Shown one piece after another: positions 32,905-40,396 of a stretch of DNA of 64,000 bases. The notes under the pieces were generated by a model. It did not search any database, was not told where the DNA came from, and worked only from the letters and a program-made list of their open reading frames with translations. Each line of letters starts with the position of its first letter. The first letter of the stretch is position 1. Made by a program: the position numbers and the translations under genes. Origin of the DNA: Flavobacterium enshiense. Its GTDB lineage: Bacteria > Bacteroidota > Bacteroidia > Flavobacteriales > Flavobacteriaceae. The stretch is from the NCBI RefSeq assembly GCF_022836875.1, contig NZ_CP090376.1, positions 1,674,001 through 1,738,000 on the forward strand, read 5' to 3'.

Positions 32905-34323
32905 CTATTTTACTTTTTTCAGCCCCATTTTTTCTGCTTTCTTCATTACAAAATCGTAAGCGGCCTGATATTCATTCGGAATTTCACCTTCCAGAATAGC
33001 TTCTTTCACTGCTTCTTTCAAAATTCCTATTTCTCTTGAAGGCTTTAAGTCAAACAATTCCATGATTTCTTCCCCGGTAATAGGAGGCTGGAACACGCGA
33101 ACCCGGTCACGTTCTTCTACTTCAACGATTTTTTCGCGAACAATCTTGAAGTTGTTATGGTACTTCTGGAATTTTTTCGGATTTTTGGTCGTAATGTCAG
33201 CTTCGCATAAAGTCATCAGGCTTTCCACATCTTCTCCTGCATCAAAAACCAAACGTCTAACGGCAGAATCCGTGACAATATCCTCAGCCAACACTATCGG
33301 TCGCGAACTCATCATGACCATTTTCTGAACGAATTTCAGTTTCTGGTTCAAAGGCATATGCAAACGAACAAAAATTTTCTTCGCCATTTTCCCGCCTAAA
33401 AATTCATGGCCGTGGAATGTCCATCCCTGTTTTTTGTTGTAGCGTTTTGTGGGTGCTTTCCCGATGTCGTGCAGCAATGCCGACCATCGTAACCATACGT
33501 CATCGGTATTTGGGCAGATATTATCCACAACTTCCAAAGTATGGTAGAAGTTGTTTTTGTGTGTATGCCCTTCAATTTCCTCCACTTGGTTTAAAGCGGT
33601 TAATTCAGGAAGGATAATGTCAAGCAATCCGGTTTGGTATAGCAAGATGAAACCAACAGAAGGAACTTCAGACATTAGTATTTTATTCAGTTCGTCAACA
33701 ATTCGTTCTCCCGAAATGATATTGATTCTGTCTTTGTTTTTTTTGATGGATGCCAGGGATTCGGCTTCGATATGAAAATTAAGCTGGGAAGCAAAACGAA
33801 TGGCACGCATCATGCGCAACGGATCGTCTGAATAAGTGATATCCGGATCTAAAGGCGTTTTGATGGTTTTGTTTTCCATGTCGGCCAGTCCGTTAAAAGG
33901 ATCCACTAAGTCGCCATATGTTGTCTCATTCAGCGAAAGCGCCAAAGCATTAATGGTAAAATCGCGTCTGTTCTGATCGTCTTCCAGCGTTCCGTTTTCT
34001 ACAATCGGATTACGGCTGTCGCGGTTGTAGCTTTCTTTTCTGGCTCCAACGAATTCAATATCCATGTCTTCATAGCGCAACATTGCCGTTCCGTAGTTTT
34101 TAAAAACCTGGACTTTCGGCTTGTGCGGGATGAGTTCGGATACTTTTAAAGCTAATTCAATGCCGCTGCCCACAGCAACAACGTCGATGTCTTTTTTGTG
34201 GTCTCTTTTTAAAATCAAATCACGTACAAAACCACCAATCACATAACTTTCTACGTTTAGTTCTTTAGCTGCCTGAGCGATGATTCTGAAAATTTTATCC
34301 TGTAATGCTTCTTTGTAATTCAT
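32905..34323 (-). CDS. cca: CCA tRNA nucleotidyltransferase with HD domain
   Basis: Adds or repairs the 3' CCA of tRNAs; needed here because the tRNA genes in this window do not encode CCA. The 472-residue protein has the nucleotidyltransferase signature [11 protein letters not shown] with the catalytic DxD in KDIDVVAVG. The [10 protein letters not shown] motif follows. A C-terminal HD phosphohydrolase-like domain has [17 protein letters not shown]. The region just upstream holds a dispersed repeat and a decayed copy of the yrdC 3' end, see 34340-34498. Confidence 0.94.
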
Positions 34324-34339
34324 TTCAAGGTTCCGTTTT

Positions 34340-34405
34340 TGTCATTTCGACGAAGGAGAAATCTCACGTTTACGTCCGATAGGATTTCGTCTGTACGACA
34401 AATGT
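34340..34405. repeat. Dispersed imperfect palindrome of the GTCATTTCGACGAAGG type
   Basis: The left arm reads GTCATTTCGACGAAGGAG then AAATC. The right half (AGGATTTCGTCTGTACGACA then AATG) is its decayed inverted counterpart. Intact versions of this palindrome are common between genes in flavobacteria. This copy lies between cca and the yrdC remnant. Confidence 0.6.
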
Positions 34406-34409
34406 TATT

Positions 34410-34498
34410 TGCGAATTATCTGCACCAGGCTATCAGAAGTTAATTTAAATGATAGTGGGAGGTTTGCCGCAAATTTTATCGTGGTGCAAATTTACCAC
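34410..34498 (-). pseudogene. Remnant of the 3' end of a Sua5/YrdC gene
   Basis: Bases 34438-34498 match bases 36847-36906 at the 3' end of the intact yrdC gene in about 52 of 61 aligned columns, same orientation; weaker similarity continues to about 34410. Read on the minus strand it gives VVNLHHDKICGKPPTII followed by a stop, against VVNLNQDKICDKPSTII in the intact gene. A one-base insertion breaks the frame afterwards. It sits about 90 bases from cca, the place where an intact yrdC 3' end would lie if the genes between had not been inserted. Confidence 0.85.
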
Positions 34499-34638
34499 TT
34501 TGATAATCGATAACGAAAATTTAAAAGGTTTTTTATTGAATTCATTTTAGATTTATTGCTTGGTTAAGAGTGATACAGCAATAGTTTTTTAAAAAAAAAT
34601 AAATAGTAAAGTTTATCCTCAATAAATAGAATTAATTT

Positions 34639-34646
34639 TAGTTTTG
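34639..34646 (+). promoter_or_regulatory. -7 box (TAGTTTTG) for the 34.7 kb glycosyltransferase
   Basis: An exact TAnnTTTG match about 24 bases before the ATG at 34670, within a very A/T-rich spacer. No TTG -33 element was seen. Confidence 0.45.
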
Positions 34647-34669
34647 TGCTTTAAACTGAAAAATCGACA

Positions 34670-35812
34670 ATGAGCCATATCCTTTATTTTTTTCCGGAAA
34701 ACTTAATGTTACAACGACATGGGAACAATGTCAGGGCATTGGAATTATTGAAATATTTTAAAGACCGAGGCATAAGTGTTGATTTTGTTAGTGCGTCCAG
34801 TGATTTTTTTGCTCAAGGAGGTATAGAATTTCTAAAAGAAGAAGGACTAATAGAGAATGGATATGTTTTAGAAACGCCTTCAAGAAAGAAAAACCAAATT
34901 AAATATATGTTTAAACATTCTTTGCCTAACAAAATTTCTTATTTAAGAAAATACTTCAGGCAGGGAAAGTTGGTTAAAGTCGATCAATTCAGGGACATTT
35001 TAGAAAAGAAGAAATACGATAAGATTGTTATTTCGTATGTTTTTTGGTCACACCTGATAGATAGTAAAGAATTATTGAAAGGAGCCGAGTTAATTATTGA
35101 TACCCACGATTTTATAACAGCACAGTATAAAGAAGAGAAAAAGTTTAAAACAGGCGCTTTTTTAGATAAAGAACTTGAATTACTGAACAAGTTTGATAAG
35201 ATTTTGACCATTTCGGTTGATGAGAAGTATATATTTTCACAGTTTTTAAACAAAGAAGTTATTTGGGCTCCTCATCCAATTGCTTTTAATGGAGCTGTAT
35301 CCAAAAAAGATTACGAGTACGACCTTATTTATGTGGCCAGTGATAATGTTCATAATGTCAAATCCGCAAAATGGTTTTTTGAAAATGTATATCCGTTATT
35401 GAATGAGGAAGTTAAAATTTGCGTAATAGGCAAGGTGTCGGAACATATTGAAGATAAACCGAATATAATTAAGTTGGTGAGTGTTGATGATTTAACCGAT
35501 TATTACAAGAAATCAAAGATTGCAATTTGTCCGATGCTTTCAGGAACAGGACTGAAAATAAAAGTTGTTGAGGCCATGTCTTATGGGCTTCCGGTGGTTT
35601 GTAATGAAAGAGGGTTAGATGGTTTGTCGTCAAAATACAATAACGGATGTTTAGCAACAAATTCTCCATCAGAGTTTGCTGAAAATATACACAAGTTGTT
35701 ATCGGATAACGATTTGTACAACAAGGTATCCGAGCAGTCTGTAAACCATTTTATGCAAAACTACGAGAGAAATGTAGTTTACAAAATGTTGGATTCGATA
35801 TTTATAAATTAA
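34670..35812 (+). CDS. Glycosyltransferase, GT-B fold (GT4-like)
   Basis: A 380-residue cytoplasmic glycosyltransferase. The N-terminal Rossmann domain begins ILYFFPENLMLQRHGNNVRALELLKYFKDRG. The C-terminal domain has DLIYVASDNVHNVKSAKWFF and the donor-binding ending ICPMLSGTGLKIKVVEAMSYGLPVVCNERGLDG, with the E-x7-type glutamate region of GT4 enzymes. It probably adds a sugar to a surface glycan; the sugar is unknown. It is followed ten bases later by a pyruvyl transferase gene. Its last 20 coding bases plus stop recur at 36786. Its base composition is more A/T-rich than the flanking housekeeping genes, in keeping with an acquired locus. Confidence 0.82.
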   Translation: MSHILYFFPENLMLQRHGNNVRALELLKYFKDRGISVDFVSASSDFFAQGGIEFLKEEGLIENGYVLETPSRKKNQIKYMFKHSLPNKISYLRKYFRQGKLVKVDQFRDILEKKKYDKIVISYVFWSHLIDSKELLKGAELIIDTHDFITAQYKEEKKFKTGAFLDKELELLNKFDKILTISVDEKYIFSQFLNKEVIWAPHPIAFNGAVSKKDYEYDLIYVASDNVHNVKSAKWFFENVYPLLNEEVKICVIGKVSEHIEDKPNIIKLVSVDDLTDYYKKSKIAICPMLSGTGLKIKVVEAMSYGLPVVCNERGLDGLSSKYNNGCLATNSPSEFAENIHKLLSDNDLYNKVSEQSVNHFMQNYERNVVYKMLDSIFIN

Positions 35813-35816
35813 ATAA
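35791..35816 (+). repeat. 26-bp direct repeat, copy 1 (3' end of the GT gene)
   Basis: Starts GGATTCGATATTTATAAATT and includes the stop codon of the glycosyltransferase gene. The second copy at 36786-36811 differs in one base. Together they bracket the pyruvyl transferase gene. Confidence 0.8.
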
Positions 35817-35822
35817 AAGTGC

Positions 35823-36710
35823 ATGAAATTAATTTATTATAGTTGTGATAGGGGGAATATCGGCGATGAATTGAATGTCTGGCTCTGGCCAAAAATTTTC
35901 GGTGATAAAATCCTTGAAGAAGGTGATGATACAGCTTTTTTAGGCATTGGTTCTATTCTTCTTGAAAATTCCGACTATATTGAAGAAGCTTCCAAATACA
36001 GCAAAAAAGTTGTTTTTGGGACCGGAGTACGTTCAGTAAGCGAACGGATTGAAATGGACAACAGCTGGTATGTTTCCTTTTTGCGTGGACCATTCAGCTC
36101 GTTACGGCTTAAACAGTCAACTTCTGATTATATTACGGATGGCGCTTATTATGTGGCACTTTTGGATAAATATGAGACATACAGAAATACACCCAAGAAA
36201 TACAAAATCTCTGTGATACCGTATTATCGGTCCATGGATAAAATGGATTGGAAAAAACTTTGTGGTGATTTGGGCTGGCATTTGATTACACCTGAAACAA
36301 TGAACGTGGAACATTTTATTCAAGAAGTGGCAGCCAGCGAATTTGTTATCAGTGAAGCAATGCATGGTGCTATTTTGGCTGATGTTTTGAGGGTTCCCTG
36401 GAAGAGGCTTCGGTTTTATTCCCACCATTATGAGGGAGAGAAAGTTTCCGAATTCAAATGGATGGACTGGCTTTTTTCGATTGAAATATACGATAATCAA
36501 TACTTGGAGATTCCCCAAAAGCGAAAAAAATGGTATCGTAAACTGCTTAAGTTTTACTATGAACAAAAGCACCTTAAAAAAGTAAAAAAACGATTGTCAA
36601 TACACGAATCAGTTCCCTTTTATCTGTCCAGCGAAGCAAGGTTTACAACAATTGTTTCCCAATTGAAAGCTAAAAAAGAAGAATTGATTCGTTATATGAA
36701 CAACAAATAA
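35823..36710 (+). CDS. Polysaccharide pyruvyl transferase family protein
   Basis: A 295-residue enzyme of the CsaB/ExoV family, which transfers pyruvate from phosphoenolpyruvate onto sugars of surface polysaccharides as a ketal. The N-terminus MKLIYYSCDRGNIGDELNVWLWPKIFG carries the GNxGD(E/D)LN motif. The GT-B-like second half has FVISEAMHGAILADVLRVPW, the conserved donor-site motif with its His. It forms a two-gene unit with the preceding glycosyltransferase (10-base gap) and is bracketed by 26-bp repeats. The likely role is adding negative charge to a surface glycan; this is inference. Confidence 0.85.
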   Translation: MKLIYYSCDRGNIGDELNVWLWPKIFGDKILEEGDDTAFLGIGSILLENSDYIEEASKYSKKVVFGTGVRSVSERIEMDNSWYVSFLRGPFSSLRLKQSTSDYITDGAYYVALLDKYETYRNTPKKYKISVIPYYRSMDKMDWKKLCGDLGWHLITPETMNVEHFIQEVAASEFVISEAMHGAILADVLRVPWKRLRFYSHHYEGEKVSEFKWMDWLFSIEIYDNQYLEIPQKRKKWYRKLLKFYYEQKHLKKVKKRLSIHESVPFYLSSEARFTTIVSQLKAKKEELIRYMNNK

Positions 36711-36785: not shown

Positions 36786-36811
36786 GGATTTGATATTTAT
36801 AAATTAAATAA
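36786..36811 (+). repeat. 26-bp direct repeat, copy 2 (orphan GT 3' end)
   Basis: It matches 35791-35816 in 25 of 26 bases and ends two bases before the stop codon of the opposing yrdC gene. Reading back in the glycosyltransferase frame, stops soon appear, so only the tail of a gene is duplicated here. Confidence 0.8.
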
Positions 36812-36813
36812 GG

Positions 36814-37374
36814 TTATTTTCGGATGATTTTTACCTGATTGTCATTAGTTAATTTAATGATAGTCGAGGGTTTGTCGCAAATTTTATCCTGGTTTAGATT
36901 TACCACATAGTCAACACCTTTTAAAATTTCCGGACTTATCTCTTTGAAGGACTTCGGAGTAGGTTGCCCGGATATGTTGGCAGAAGTTGAAACTAATGGT
37001 TTTTTCATGCGTTCCATCAGTTTAAAACAAAACGGTTCTGTTACAATTCGCACACCTAAAGTATTGTCCTCTGCTATGATATTTTGAGCTACATTTCGTG
37101 GGTTGTCCAGGATTAGGGTAGTTGGTTTTTCAGATAAATCAAGAATCTGCCAGGCCACTTCGGGTATGTCTTTAAAAACATTGTACATCATTCGCTCTCC
37201 GTTCATTAAAACGATCATGCTTTTACTTTCTTCACGTTGTTTTAAGGCATAGATCTTTTTTACCGCTTCCGGATTAGTCGCATCGCAACCAATGCCCCAA
37301 ACGGTATCTGTAGGATAAAGAATGATTCCGCCATTTTTGATGACTTCGTAAGCGTTGTGGATTTCAGTATTCAT
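36814..37374 (-). CDS. tsaC: L-threonylcarbamoyladenylate synthase, Sua5/YciO/YrdC family
   Basis: Makes the threonylcarbamoyl-AMP needed for the t6A modification of tRNAs that read ANN codons. The 186-residue protein is the short YrdC form without the Sua5 C-terminal domain. Characteristic segments are GGIILYPTDTVWGIGCDATN, KQREESKSMIVLM, LGVRIVTEPF and PLVSTSANISGQPTPKSF. A mutated duplicate of its last about 60-90 bases lies next to cca at 34410-34498. This suggests that the polysaccharide genes between the two were inserted here. Neighbouring cca and yrdC are probably ancestrally adjacent. Confidence 0.94.
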   Translation of the reverse strand: MNTEIHNAYEVIKNGGIILYPTDTVWGIGCDATNPEAVKKIYALKQREESKSMIVLMNGERMMYNVFKDIPEVAWQILDLSEKPTTLILDNPRNVAQNIIAEDNTLGVRIVTEPFCFKLMERMKKPLVSTSANISGQPTPKSFKEISPEILKGVDYVVNLNQDKICDKPSTIIKLTNDNQVKIIRK

Positions 37375-37687: not shown

Positions 37688-38842
37688 ATGGTGCATAAAA
37701 AAAAGATAGTTTTAGATCCCCAAATTTTTAACGACCAGGAATATGGAGGGATTTCAAGATATTATGTTGAGATTTTTTCCAGGGTAAAGCGAAATAGTAA
37801 GGATTTCGAAGTTATAGTACCGGCGCTGTATTCCAAGAATGTTTACCTGGCCGAAAGTGATTTAAATGATTCCAAATCGGCATCTTTTGGGCGCTACATT
37901 GATTTTTTGAATAAAATAGGAATCAGTGTCCGAAAAAAAATTAAAAAAAGAAACAGATCCTTTGCGTTGCAAATAATTGGTTCACAAGACTTCGATTTGT
38001 TTATCCCGACTTATTTTGATCCGTATTTTTTAAATCTAATTGGGGGAAAACCTTTTGTGCTGACAGTTTATGATATGATTCATGAATTGTTTCCTTCCAA
38101 TTTTCCGGATGACACCACAACTGTTAAGAACAAGTTGTTACTGATGGAAAAAGCAACCAAAATAATTGCGGTTTCAAATAATACCAAAAATGACATTCTG
38201 CGTATCTATCCTCATTTGGACGCAAGTAAAATTGAGGTGATTTATCATGGAAATTCAATTGAAATTTATCCTGATGAAAAAATTGATTTACCTCCGAAAT
38301 ACCTTCTTTATGTTGGATCCAGAGAGCATTATAAGAATTTTGGTTTACTCACCGAAGCCATAGAAGAAACTTTGAAAAGTCAGGATGGTTTGGTTTTATT
38401 ATGTGCCGGAGGCGGGGCTTTTAAAGAAAAAGAAAAAGAATTCCTTAAGAGTAAAGGGTTGACAGATAAAGTTCTTCAGTTGCCGTTTAAGGAAAAACAG
38501 TTAGGGAAGATATATCAGAATGCAATCGCCTTTATTTTTCCTTCCGTGTATGAAGGATTTGGGATACCCGTTTTAGAGGCAATGGCATGCGGCTGTCCAA
38601 TAATACTAACAGATAACAGTTCTTTCCCGGAAGTGGCAGGAGATGCCGGTATTTTTTTCAAACTGAATGATAAGGCAGATTTAAGAAGCAAAATAGAAAT
38701 GGTTCTTGCTGATGCTGATTTACGAGAAAAGCACATCCAGAAGGGATTGGAGAGAATAAAAAAATTTAGCTGGGATGAAGCCAGCGCTTCTTGTATAAAG
38801 GTTTATAATGAAGCTATAGTATTGACCCATAAAAATAAATAA
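37688..38842 (+). CDS. Glycosyltransferase family 4
   Basis: A 384-residue GT-B enzyme. N-terminal acceptor domain: KIVLDPQIFNDQEYGGISRYYVEIFSRV, with the YGGISRY segment seen in mannosyltransferase-like GT4 proteins. C-terminal donor domain: PKYLLYVGSREHYKNFGLLTEAI and the E-x7-E motif region PSVYEGFGIPVLEAMACGCPIILTDNSSFPEVAGDAG. It probably transfers a nucleotide-activated hexose such as mannose to a surface glycan; the specificity is a guess. It stands alone, between yrdC and the gmd operon, with its own promoter and a long spacer after it. Confidence 0.9.
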   Translation: MVHKKKIVLDPQIFNDQEYGGISRYYVEIFSRVKRNSKDFEVIVPALYSKNVYLAESDLNDSKSASFGRYIDFLNKIGISVRKKIKKRNRSFALQIIGSQDFDLFIPTYFDPYFLNLIGGKPFVLTVYDMIHELFPSNFPDDTTTVKNKLLLMEKATKIIAVSNNTKNDILRIYPHLDASKIEVIYHGNSIEIYPDEKIDLPPKYLLYVGSREHYKNFGLLTEAIEETLKSQDGLVLLCAGGGAFKEKEKEFLKSKGLTDKVLQLPFKEKQLGKIYQNAIAFIFPSVYEGFGIPVLEAMACGCPIILTDNSSFPEVAGDAGIFFKLNDKADLRSKIEMVLADADLREKHIQKGLERIKKFSWDEASASCIKVYNEAIVLTHKNK

Positions 38843-39304
38843 AGAATTCTTTTTCTGATATTTAACTGGCAGGAAAGAATTCATAGGGTTTTGAATAGAT
38901 CAGAAAAGTAAGATATGACAGGTTGTTTATGACCAGAGTTGGTCCTGGGAAAACAAGGATGTTGAGGTTATTTTGAAAGCGGCGTCTGTATTGCCTATTG
39001 ATTAGGATTGTGAAGTAAAGATGCGTTTCAAAGAAGAAAATTTTGTGCATAAATATGCAGCTTCTTAGGTAATAATCTGTTTTTTGATCTATTAGAGGGA
39101 TTGTCTTTAAAGATGATTGCCTGTCTCAAAATGTTTTTTCTATTTTTGCGATGTATTTGCAGAAGCAGTTTATCATAATAAAATATTTTTTTTAGATAAA
39201 TCAGTTACTGATTAAAAGACTGAAAAGGAATAGATATCAATTAACAACATAAAATTCGTCTTTTTGAGATAATCAACAGATGAATTGTTTTATATAAAAT
39301 TAGT
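38843..39304. other. 462-base spacer before gmd
   Basis: No gene is convincing here. It contains an inverted repeat GAATTCTTT (38844-38852) with AAAGAATTC (38874-38882) just after the GT4 stop codon. This could be a weak terminator without T tract. It also contains the gmd promoter (39117-39148) and a long leader. A 62-codon minus-strand frame at 38862-39050 has no recognisable protein character. Confidence 0.5.
39117..39148 (+). promoter_or_regulatory. Promoter of the gmd-fcl-glycosyltransferase operon
   Basis: TTG (39117-39119) and TATTTTTG (39141-39148) are separated by 21 bases. The predicted transcript has an unusually long leader of about 150 bases before the gmd ATG at 39305. Confidence 0.65.
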
Positions 39305-40396
39305 ATGAAGACAGCCTTAATAACAGGGGTTACAGGACAGGACGGAGCATATTTGGCAGAATTATTACTGTCAAAAGGATATATGGTTCATGGTATTAAA
39401 AGAAGAAGTTCTTTATTTAATACACAGCGCATTGATCATATTTATGAGGATCCGCACATTGAAAACCAGCATTTTAAATTGCACTATGGCGATTTAAGTG
39501 ATTCTACCAATTTGATCAGAATCATTCAGGAAACACAACCTGATGAAATCTACAATTTGGGTGCTATGAGCCACGTAAAAGTTAGTTTCGATACCCCTGA
39601 ATATACGGCAAATGCTGATGGAATCGGAACTTTACGAATTCTGGAAGCCGTTCGTTTACTGGGATTAACCAAGAAAACCAAAATTTATCAGGCATCTACT
39701 TCAGAATTGTACGGATTGGTGCAGGAAGTTCCTCAAAAGGAAACGACTCCTTTCTATCCGCGCTCTCCTTATGCGGTGGCGAAAATGTATGCCTACTGGA
39801 TTACGGTGAATTATCGTGAAGCTTACGATATGTTTGCCTGCAACGGAATTTTATTCAATCACGAGAGTCCACGTCGAGGAGAAACCTTTGTAACCAGAAA
39901 AATTACCAGAGGGGTTGCTCAAATGGCAATGGGAATGCAAGACACACTGTTTATGGGGAATATTGACTCACAGCGTGATTGGGGACATGCCAAAGATTAT
40001 GTGGAAGCTATGTGGCTGATTTTGCAGCAGGAAAAACCGGAAGATTTTGTAATTTCAACAGGTGTAACGACTACCGTTAGAGATTTTATCAGAATGTCCT
40101 TTAAAGAAGTTGGTGTTGAAGTGGCATTTTCCGGAGAAGGTGTCGATGAAGTGGCTGTAGTTGTATCTACTTCTAACCCAGAATACAGTTTTACCGTTGG
40201 TCAAGTGGTTGTGAAAATTGACCCTACTTACTTCAGACCGACCGAGGTGGATTTACTGATTGGCGACAATACGAAAGCAAAAACAAAATTGGGCTGGGAA
40301 CCAAAATATACTTTGGAAATGCTTGTTAAGGAAATGATGGAGGCCGATGTCGAATTGTTTAAAAAAGAAAAACACCTAAAAGCACACGCTAAATAA
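39305..40396 (+). CDS. gmd: GDP-mannose 4,6-dehydratase
   Basis: Catalyses the first step from GDP-D-mannose to GDP-L-fucose, giving GDP-4-keto-6-deoxymannose. The 363-residue short-chain dehydrogenase-like enzyme opens with the NADP-binding motif [16 protein letters not shown] and the GMD signature [16 protein letters not shown]. The catalytic Thr/Ser and Tyr/Lys are in STSELYG and SPYAVAKMY (Y-x3-K). [17 protein letters not shown] is also typical. It is the first gene of a five-gene operon, only two bases before fcl. The product is probably used for fucose-containing surface glycan made by the glycosyltransferases that follow. Confidence 0.97.

Follow-up and report, generated by a model that had tools for sequence, protein, structure and literature searches.

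Why does a broken copy of one gene's end persist beside another gene? The question is raised by a locus of Flavobacterium enshiense in which the tRNA nucleotidyltransferase gene cca is preceded by a fossil of the 3' end of yrdC, while the intact yrdC lies farther upstream. The window that we analysed is a stretch of 64,000 nucleotides of this genome. On its minus strand it carries cca (32905..34323; an ORF of 472 aa with the Pfam domains PolyA_pol, PolyA_pol_RNAbd, and HD), the fossil (34405..34498), and the intact yrdC of the Sua5/YciO/YrdC family (36814..37374; 186 aa, PF01300). Two genes lie between the copies of the yrdC tail, on the plus strand: GT1, assigned by Pfam to the group 1 glycosyltransferases (34670..35812), and PT (35823..36710), whose assignment to the polysaccharide pyruvyl transferase family is marginal (Pfam score 26.3, cut-off 25.3). 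A preliminary description of the window had placed the fossil beside cca, with genes of the opposite orientation between the two copies, and this layout stands: the stop of the fossil is 81 nt upstream of the start of cca (spacer 34324..34404, minus strand).

We aligned the minus strand of 34324-34669 with yrdC and its downstream spacer. The best local alignment has 98 columns (34401-34498), 77.6% identity, one gap, and a score of 84 (P about 1e-13; the maximum of 2000 dinucleotide shuffles is 37). The match had previously been put at about 52 of 61 columns; it is real, but that figure describes the better half of a longer similarity. The fossil contains the final 30 codons of yrdC and the TAA, and the alignment extends through the stop and a few bases past it. 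One extra base in the fossil is responsible for the frame break and the stops, both of which had been recognised; on either side of this base, the fossil reads VVNLHHDKICGKPPTII and KLTSDSLVQIIRK, the latter closed by the stop. In the other direction the similarity may continue, over an unscored stretch, to about 34520 (GAyTAT, then an insertion of CAAA). A DNA search of the whole genome (3,251,289 bases in a single contig, E up to 1) returned no third copy.

The comparison with relatives shows the arrangement from which this locus derives. Within the stretch of sequence covered for each locus, a same-strand cca lies downstream of yrdC in 76 of 80 loci. The gap between them is at most 940 nt in 75 of these and 1494 nt in F. 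enshiense DK69; the remaining four loci belong to the F. pectinovorum-saccharophilum group and have cca elsewhere in the genome. Adjacency is the ancestral state, and DNA entered between yrdC and cca in the enshiense lineage, as the preliminary description had proposed. The order in DK69 is yrdC, GT1 (antisense), fossil, and cca, without PT, and therefore both GT1 and the fossil predate the split of the two enshiense strains. It had further been proposed that the interval between cca and yrdC is a landing site for surface-glycan genes. We did not find different glycan genes in this gap across the relatives: DK69 alone among the 76 loci has one, and the proposal is not supported on this count. 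The glycan locus of the genus is instead found 5' of yrdC, in the direction of dapD; both dapD, on the 5' side, and glycan-gene homologues are found in 41 of the 80 loci, the full 10 kb upstream of yrdC being available in 71. Gaps longer than 200 nt number 33. One is that of DK69, with GT1, 31 contain a GxxExxY-like ORF (identified by eye; the one tested matches PF13366), and one (L040) has no ORF of 60 aa. Genes of this GxxExxY-like (PDDEXK_3) type are recurrent in the gap, being present in 31 of the 76 loci. Two of the loci come from records titled Limnohabitans and Rhizobium MAGs (L036 and L058) and fall among Flavobacterium in the trees; these contigs are probably misassigned. DK69 also has, upstream of yrdC, an additional ORF of 306 aa that looks by eye like a glycosyltransferase (L032, 7515-8543), and the corresponding part of the window (38842-39305) contains no ORF that reaches 80 aa.

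GT1 is common to the window and DK69, with 83% amino acid identity. Codons with synonymous differences between the two strains amount to 80 of 381 in GT1, 99 of 472 in cca, 33 of 187 in yrdC, 72 of 364 in GMD, and 51 of 385 in GT2. A swap of GT1 alleles between the strains is not supported, since the synonymous divergence of GT1 is about that of the neighbouring genes. Its amino acid-changing codons (65) exceed those of the five neighbours compared, the next being GT2 with 28, which suggests fast or relaxed evolution of GT1. PT is absent from DK69 and was found at E 1e-20 in 2 of 398 genomes of the genus, namely that of the window and one with 44% identity. It is flanked by a 27-bp repeat on the plus strand, of which the left copy (35791..35817) is the 3' end of GT1 including its stop and the right copy (36786..36812; 26/27 identical, shuffle P about 8e-7) is a second gene-end scar in the interval between PT and yrdC. 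Since GT1 directly abuts yrdC in DK69, PT came in, or left, with this second duplication of a gene end.

The fossil itself contains a candidate promoter box, TAAATTTG (34487..34494, minus strand), with the consensus TAnnTTTG. In F. psychrophilum, for which a map of transcript starts has been published, TAnnTTTG is the mapped -7 box of sigma-A and is placed at -12 to -5 relative to the start (PMC9723704). In the 3' end of yrdC, the box is formed by the codons GTA-AAT-TTG. It is found at this place in 74 of 80 yrdC genes (79 loci and the window), and the six genes without it are those of the two enshiense strains and of the four loci without cca. We then enlarged the set to 136 distinct yrdC genes, after the removal of ten further rows (duplicates, second copies, and truncated genes); one of the 80 loci (L083) was dropped from the yrdC alignments by the length filter. 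The box is present in 102 of 103 genes linked to cca, in none of 31 unlinked genes, and in neither of the two intact enshiense copies. Its position is nt -89 in 101 of the 103 linked genes, and in 102 it lies within the tail window; the linked exception in the genus is L018. Below 70% identity, the box is missing from 3 of 7 linked genes; the comparison that gave this count included L021, a gene of unknown linkage. The losses trace to two separation events, and therefore the 31 unlinked genes are not independent. Four of these loci were classed as unlinked on a basis of 10 kb, and in the others the 1.5 kb downstream contain no cca and the gene has a separate place, frequently on a different contig where the assembly is a draft.

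Codon usage shows at which level this stretch is constrained. In the 103 linked genes, the codons are GAC in 102, TAT in 102, GTA in 101, AAT in 100, and TTG in 101. TTG is found in none of the 31 unlinked genes, which encode the leucine at the box by TTA, CTA, CTG, or CTT, and GAC, the codon of the Asp residue ahead of the box, is found in one. The residues at the box are still Val (31/31), Asn (22/31), and Leu (31/31) in the unlinked genes, whereas GTA-AAT-TTG is nearly fixed only in the linked ones, so the constraint acts on the DNA. The box window has the lowest entropy of the 167 windows of six codons in the linked genes, and the windows with the largest rise in entropy from linked to unlinked genes are also at the box. 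Directly after V-N-L, 87 of 103 linked genes encode His, 29 of 31 unlinked genes encode Tyr or Asn, and both enshiense copies encode Asn. A consensus at a fixed place, together with a codon constraint that depends on a downstream cca, points to a promoter embedded in yrdC. Another TAnnTTTG nearer to cca is present in 3 of 43 linked loci with gaps of up to 140 nt. Promoters may also have a -33 element of the TTG type. We identified no canonical -33 element upstream of the box; a ATTATAAAAGG-like sequence, which is not of that type, is common there in linked genes and in the remnants of the unlinked clade described below, and the fossils of both enshiense strains have changes in the sequence that precedes the box.

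In enshiense, the box has parted from the intact gene. Both fossils, in the window and in DK69, have kept TAAATTTG, and one changed base has destroyed it in the intact yrdC, where TAAATCTA replaces it (36895..36902, minus strand, in the window). At sites 10, 13, and 68, the fossils keep the base common to nine relatives and both intact copies have changed. In both strains, the box of the fossil is the sole TAnnTTTG on the strand of cca between cca and GT1, a space of 346 nt with a divergent gene in front. The predicted transcript of cca would start near 34482 (minus strand), with a 5' leader of about 159 nt. GT1 is preceded on its own strand by a separate TAnnTTTG box, TAGTTTTG (34639..34646), whose counterpart in DK69 is TAGCTTTG, at the same distance from the gene.

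The second lineage in which yrdC and cca have separated shows a parallel outcome. In the unlinked clade, all 31 distinct sequences upstream of cca (from 33 loci) have one core consisting of C or G followed by TATGTTGTAAATTTGC. The 36-nt element around this core reads as a remnant of yrdC, IIKGIFYVVNLH and variants, without a stop in 27 of 31. Scores against the linked-yrdC consensus are 29-45 for the 33 loci, and the maximum of 660 shuffles of equal length is 26. In 26 of the 33 loci, 78-88 nt separate the start of the remnant from cca; in the other 7, where all or part of a GxxExxY gene intervenes, the distance is 310-556 nt. Another TAnnTTTG within 300 nt is found in only 1 of the 31 regions. 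Hence, in both separated lineages a piece of yrdC with the promoter box is found beside cca, which indicates that this piece went with cca; the yrdC left behind has lost the box.

We consider it very probable that the fossil is the retained promoter of cca, and that the split of the two genes required a doubling of the stretch that holds both the C-terminus of yrdC and this promoter. The Flavobacterium cca promoter would lie within the last 30 codons of the upstream yrdC, so that the same bases both encode a C-terminus and act as promoter. A glycosyltransferase gene of opposite orientation would have entered between yrdC and cca before the window strain and DK69 diverged. The separation would have survived because the shared stretch was doubled, with one copy remaining with yrdC as code and the other with cca as promoter. 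The promoter copy would then have lost its reading frame, becoming the fossil, and kept its -7 box, and the coding copy, freed from promoter duty, would have lost the box. The orientation of the insert matters in this scheme. A same-strand insert, such as the GxxExxY gene, needs no second copy because transcription can pass through it, whereas GT1 on the opposite strand would cut off cca unless the stretch were doubled; this would account for the presence of a fossil next to GT1 and for its descent from the end of yrdC. The sequences show the duplication, the ancestral adjacency, the distribution of the box, and its loss and retention; from these we infer that the box drives cca and that a recombination step lies behind the duplication. 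Read-through from a more distant promoter, in antisense to both GT1 and PT, might serve cca instead.

The order of events could have been different without any change in the role of the fossil. The tail of yrdC might have been duplicated in tandem beside cca, with GT1 inserted into the pair later. We regard this origin, which concerns only how the duplication arose and is compatible with a promoter function, as possible and rather unlikely. The tandem route is available to enshiense, since Flavobacterium sp. UMI-01 and a congener have a tandem duplication of the yrdC tail and the start of a GxxExxY gene (L109, 10562-11500; L184, L185). In a census of yrdC-tail protein matches across 398 genomes of the genus, at least 382 have a match and at least 7 have two, and since the frameshifted fossil of DK69 (G238, one match) was missed, this is an undercount. 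Among the genomes with two matches, UMI-01 (G037) and G298 carry the tandem duplication and one is that of the window. The second match in G118 is weak (38%) and was not counted, and the double tails of G014, G172, and G362 are open copies on different contigs, which we read as assembly mixtures. A single enshiense clade for both tails, as expected if they were duplicated in place, is not rejected (Approximately Unbiased [AU] test, p 0.175). Site patterns lean the other way, although not significantly: the fossil agrees with F. limnosediminis against the intact tail at 9 sites and with the intact tail against F. limnosediminis at 3, and with the more distant SM15 as reference the count reverses (9 versus 13). 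The divergence and the site patterns together lean towards two tails from different lineages that were brought together.

Such a meeting of lineages is what the preliminary description had in mind. In a fuller version of that reading, incoming DNA with its own yrdC 3' end would have recombined into the resident yrdC, with an illegitimate join on the other side, and the old tail would have remained as a passive scar. The two copies are in the order that this predicts. The divergence between the fossil and the intact tail (21-23%) exceeds that of each from the sister species (15-20%), and the two enshiense fossils have no indel in common. The gene-end repeat beside PT is a second case of this form. 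Moreover, the final 43 nt of the spacer can be aligned, up to the base that precedes the ATG, with the sequence between yrdC and cca in F. cauense (score 54), whereas five other relatives score 10-16 against the same part. This match suggests that the fossil is the resident tail at its original position, with the caveats that 26 nt of the spacer resemble a dispersed repeat present in 6 of the 80 loci and that the tail tree separates the fossil from F. cauense and its sisters. Their grouping has the lowest AU p of the set (0.078), which speaks weakly against the fossil as the native tail.

The foreign origin of the end now carried by the intact yrdC was settled neither way. Nearest-neighbour identities, gene trees of the body (79 rows) and of the tail (24 rows from close relatives, about 93 bases), and AU tests gave no decision: the grouping of the intact tail with the sister species has an AU p of 0.22. 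In the body tree, the window and DK69 stand apart from the group of F. cauense, F. limnosediminis, and F. saliperosum, which cca joins firmly; a wholly foreign yrdC was nevertheless set aside, as a native body is not rejected (AU p 0.32). These trees thus show no foreign origin, and a passive scar would not lead one to expect a box that both fossils retain and both intact copies have lost, nor the similar remnant in each of the 31 distinct regions upstream of cca in the other separated clade. As a full account we find it improbable, although the same recombination may be how the duplication arose and is compatible with a promoter role. The fossil can still be called an old tail of resident appearance; the plain word scar is incomplete, since the piece carries a promoter box under strong constraint, and this constraint explains why this part of yrdC was kept.

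If the fossil is kept for cca, the conserved stretch could be, or could include, another element acting at the DNA or RNA level, such as a regulator site, an RNA leader, or a processing site. Conservation does extend beyond the -7 box, to GACTATG upstream and CAyCrCGA downstream. Its core, however, is the exact sigma-A -7 box of the genus, the only one on the strand of cca in the 346 nt upstream of the enshiense gene, and we give a different cis element in place of a promoter little chance. Integrases at tRNA genes restore the gene and displace its old end, and a site-specific element at the yrdC 3' end would give the same topology of restored gene end, insert, and displaced end; this can hardly be the case here, since no integrase was seen among the ORFs of the insert (those compared with Pfam are the two full-length ones, GT1 and PT), the two tails are identical over 13 bp at most and share no identical att core, and the other separated clade has its remnant without a glycan insert at cca.

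A third fossil of the yrdC tail is present in F. odoriferum. It has 142 nt (L049, 4857-4998), lies inside the glycan locus, keeps GACTATGTTGTAAATTTG, and ends just before a same-strand glycosyltransferase gene, of which it may have become the promoter. It is closest to the yrdC tail of strain BAL38 (85.7%), and the gene adjoining it has an 83% homologue in BAL38 that adjoins yrdC. We take the fossil and its neighbour as a sign of the transfer of a glycan block.

Promoters within genes and operons are well known, with the promoter of a downstream gene placed inside the preceding one. The yrdC/cca pair is alike in that this promoter sits towards the 3' end of the preceding gene; it differs in offering two natural splits of coding and promoter duty, in which the promoter copy is a broken gene end. 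In the minimal mobile elements of Neisseria, variable genes lie between two conserved flanking genes. The likeness ends with the conserved flanks, since the yrdC-cca gap is usually empty or holds one GxxExxY-like gene, and a glycan gene is found there only in enshiense. We found no open-access paper that treats cca, yrdC, and Flavobacterium together. Displaced gene ends have been described in other systems. For rhs genes, one study reports C-terminal displacement and arrays of dissociated C-terminal 'tips' that differ in sequence (PMC2935791). There too an acquired end takes the place of a gene's own 3' end, which stays behind, but the tips described differ from one another, unlike the yrdC fossil, which is the end of the same protein and has likely kept a regulatory site. 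For displaced effector ends of the Vibrio type VI secretion system (T6SS), homology-facilitated illegitimate recombination has been proposed, in which one homologous anchor with one illegitimate join can leave old gene parts behind (PMC5361080). For yrdC/cca, this mechanism is at most a candidate; the sequence evidence on donor and resident is inconclusive.

What appeared to be a scar is thus likely a regulatory element. On balance, we think it probable that the C-terminus of yrdC, a tRNA-modification protein, and the promoter of cca, which encodes a tRNA-maturation enzyme, were split twice by duplication and partition of duties, and that the cca promoter constrains the yrdC protein sequence itself; gene ends with dual duty would then act as a brake on changes of gene order and leave 'pseudogene' promoters behind when the brake is overcome. 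The locus is a natural experiment on overlapping functions: where the neighbour has gone, codon choice and part of the protein relax, and where yrdC and cca are driven apart, the stretch that they share is duplicated. From the box, a start of cca transcription can be predicted throughout the genus. Conservation of gene order can stem from such dual-duty gene ends, and short gene-end fossils beside conserved genes may often be promoters of this kind.
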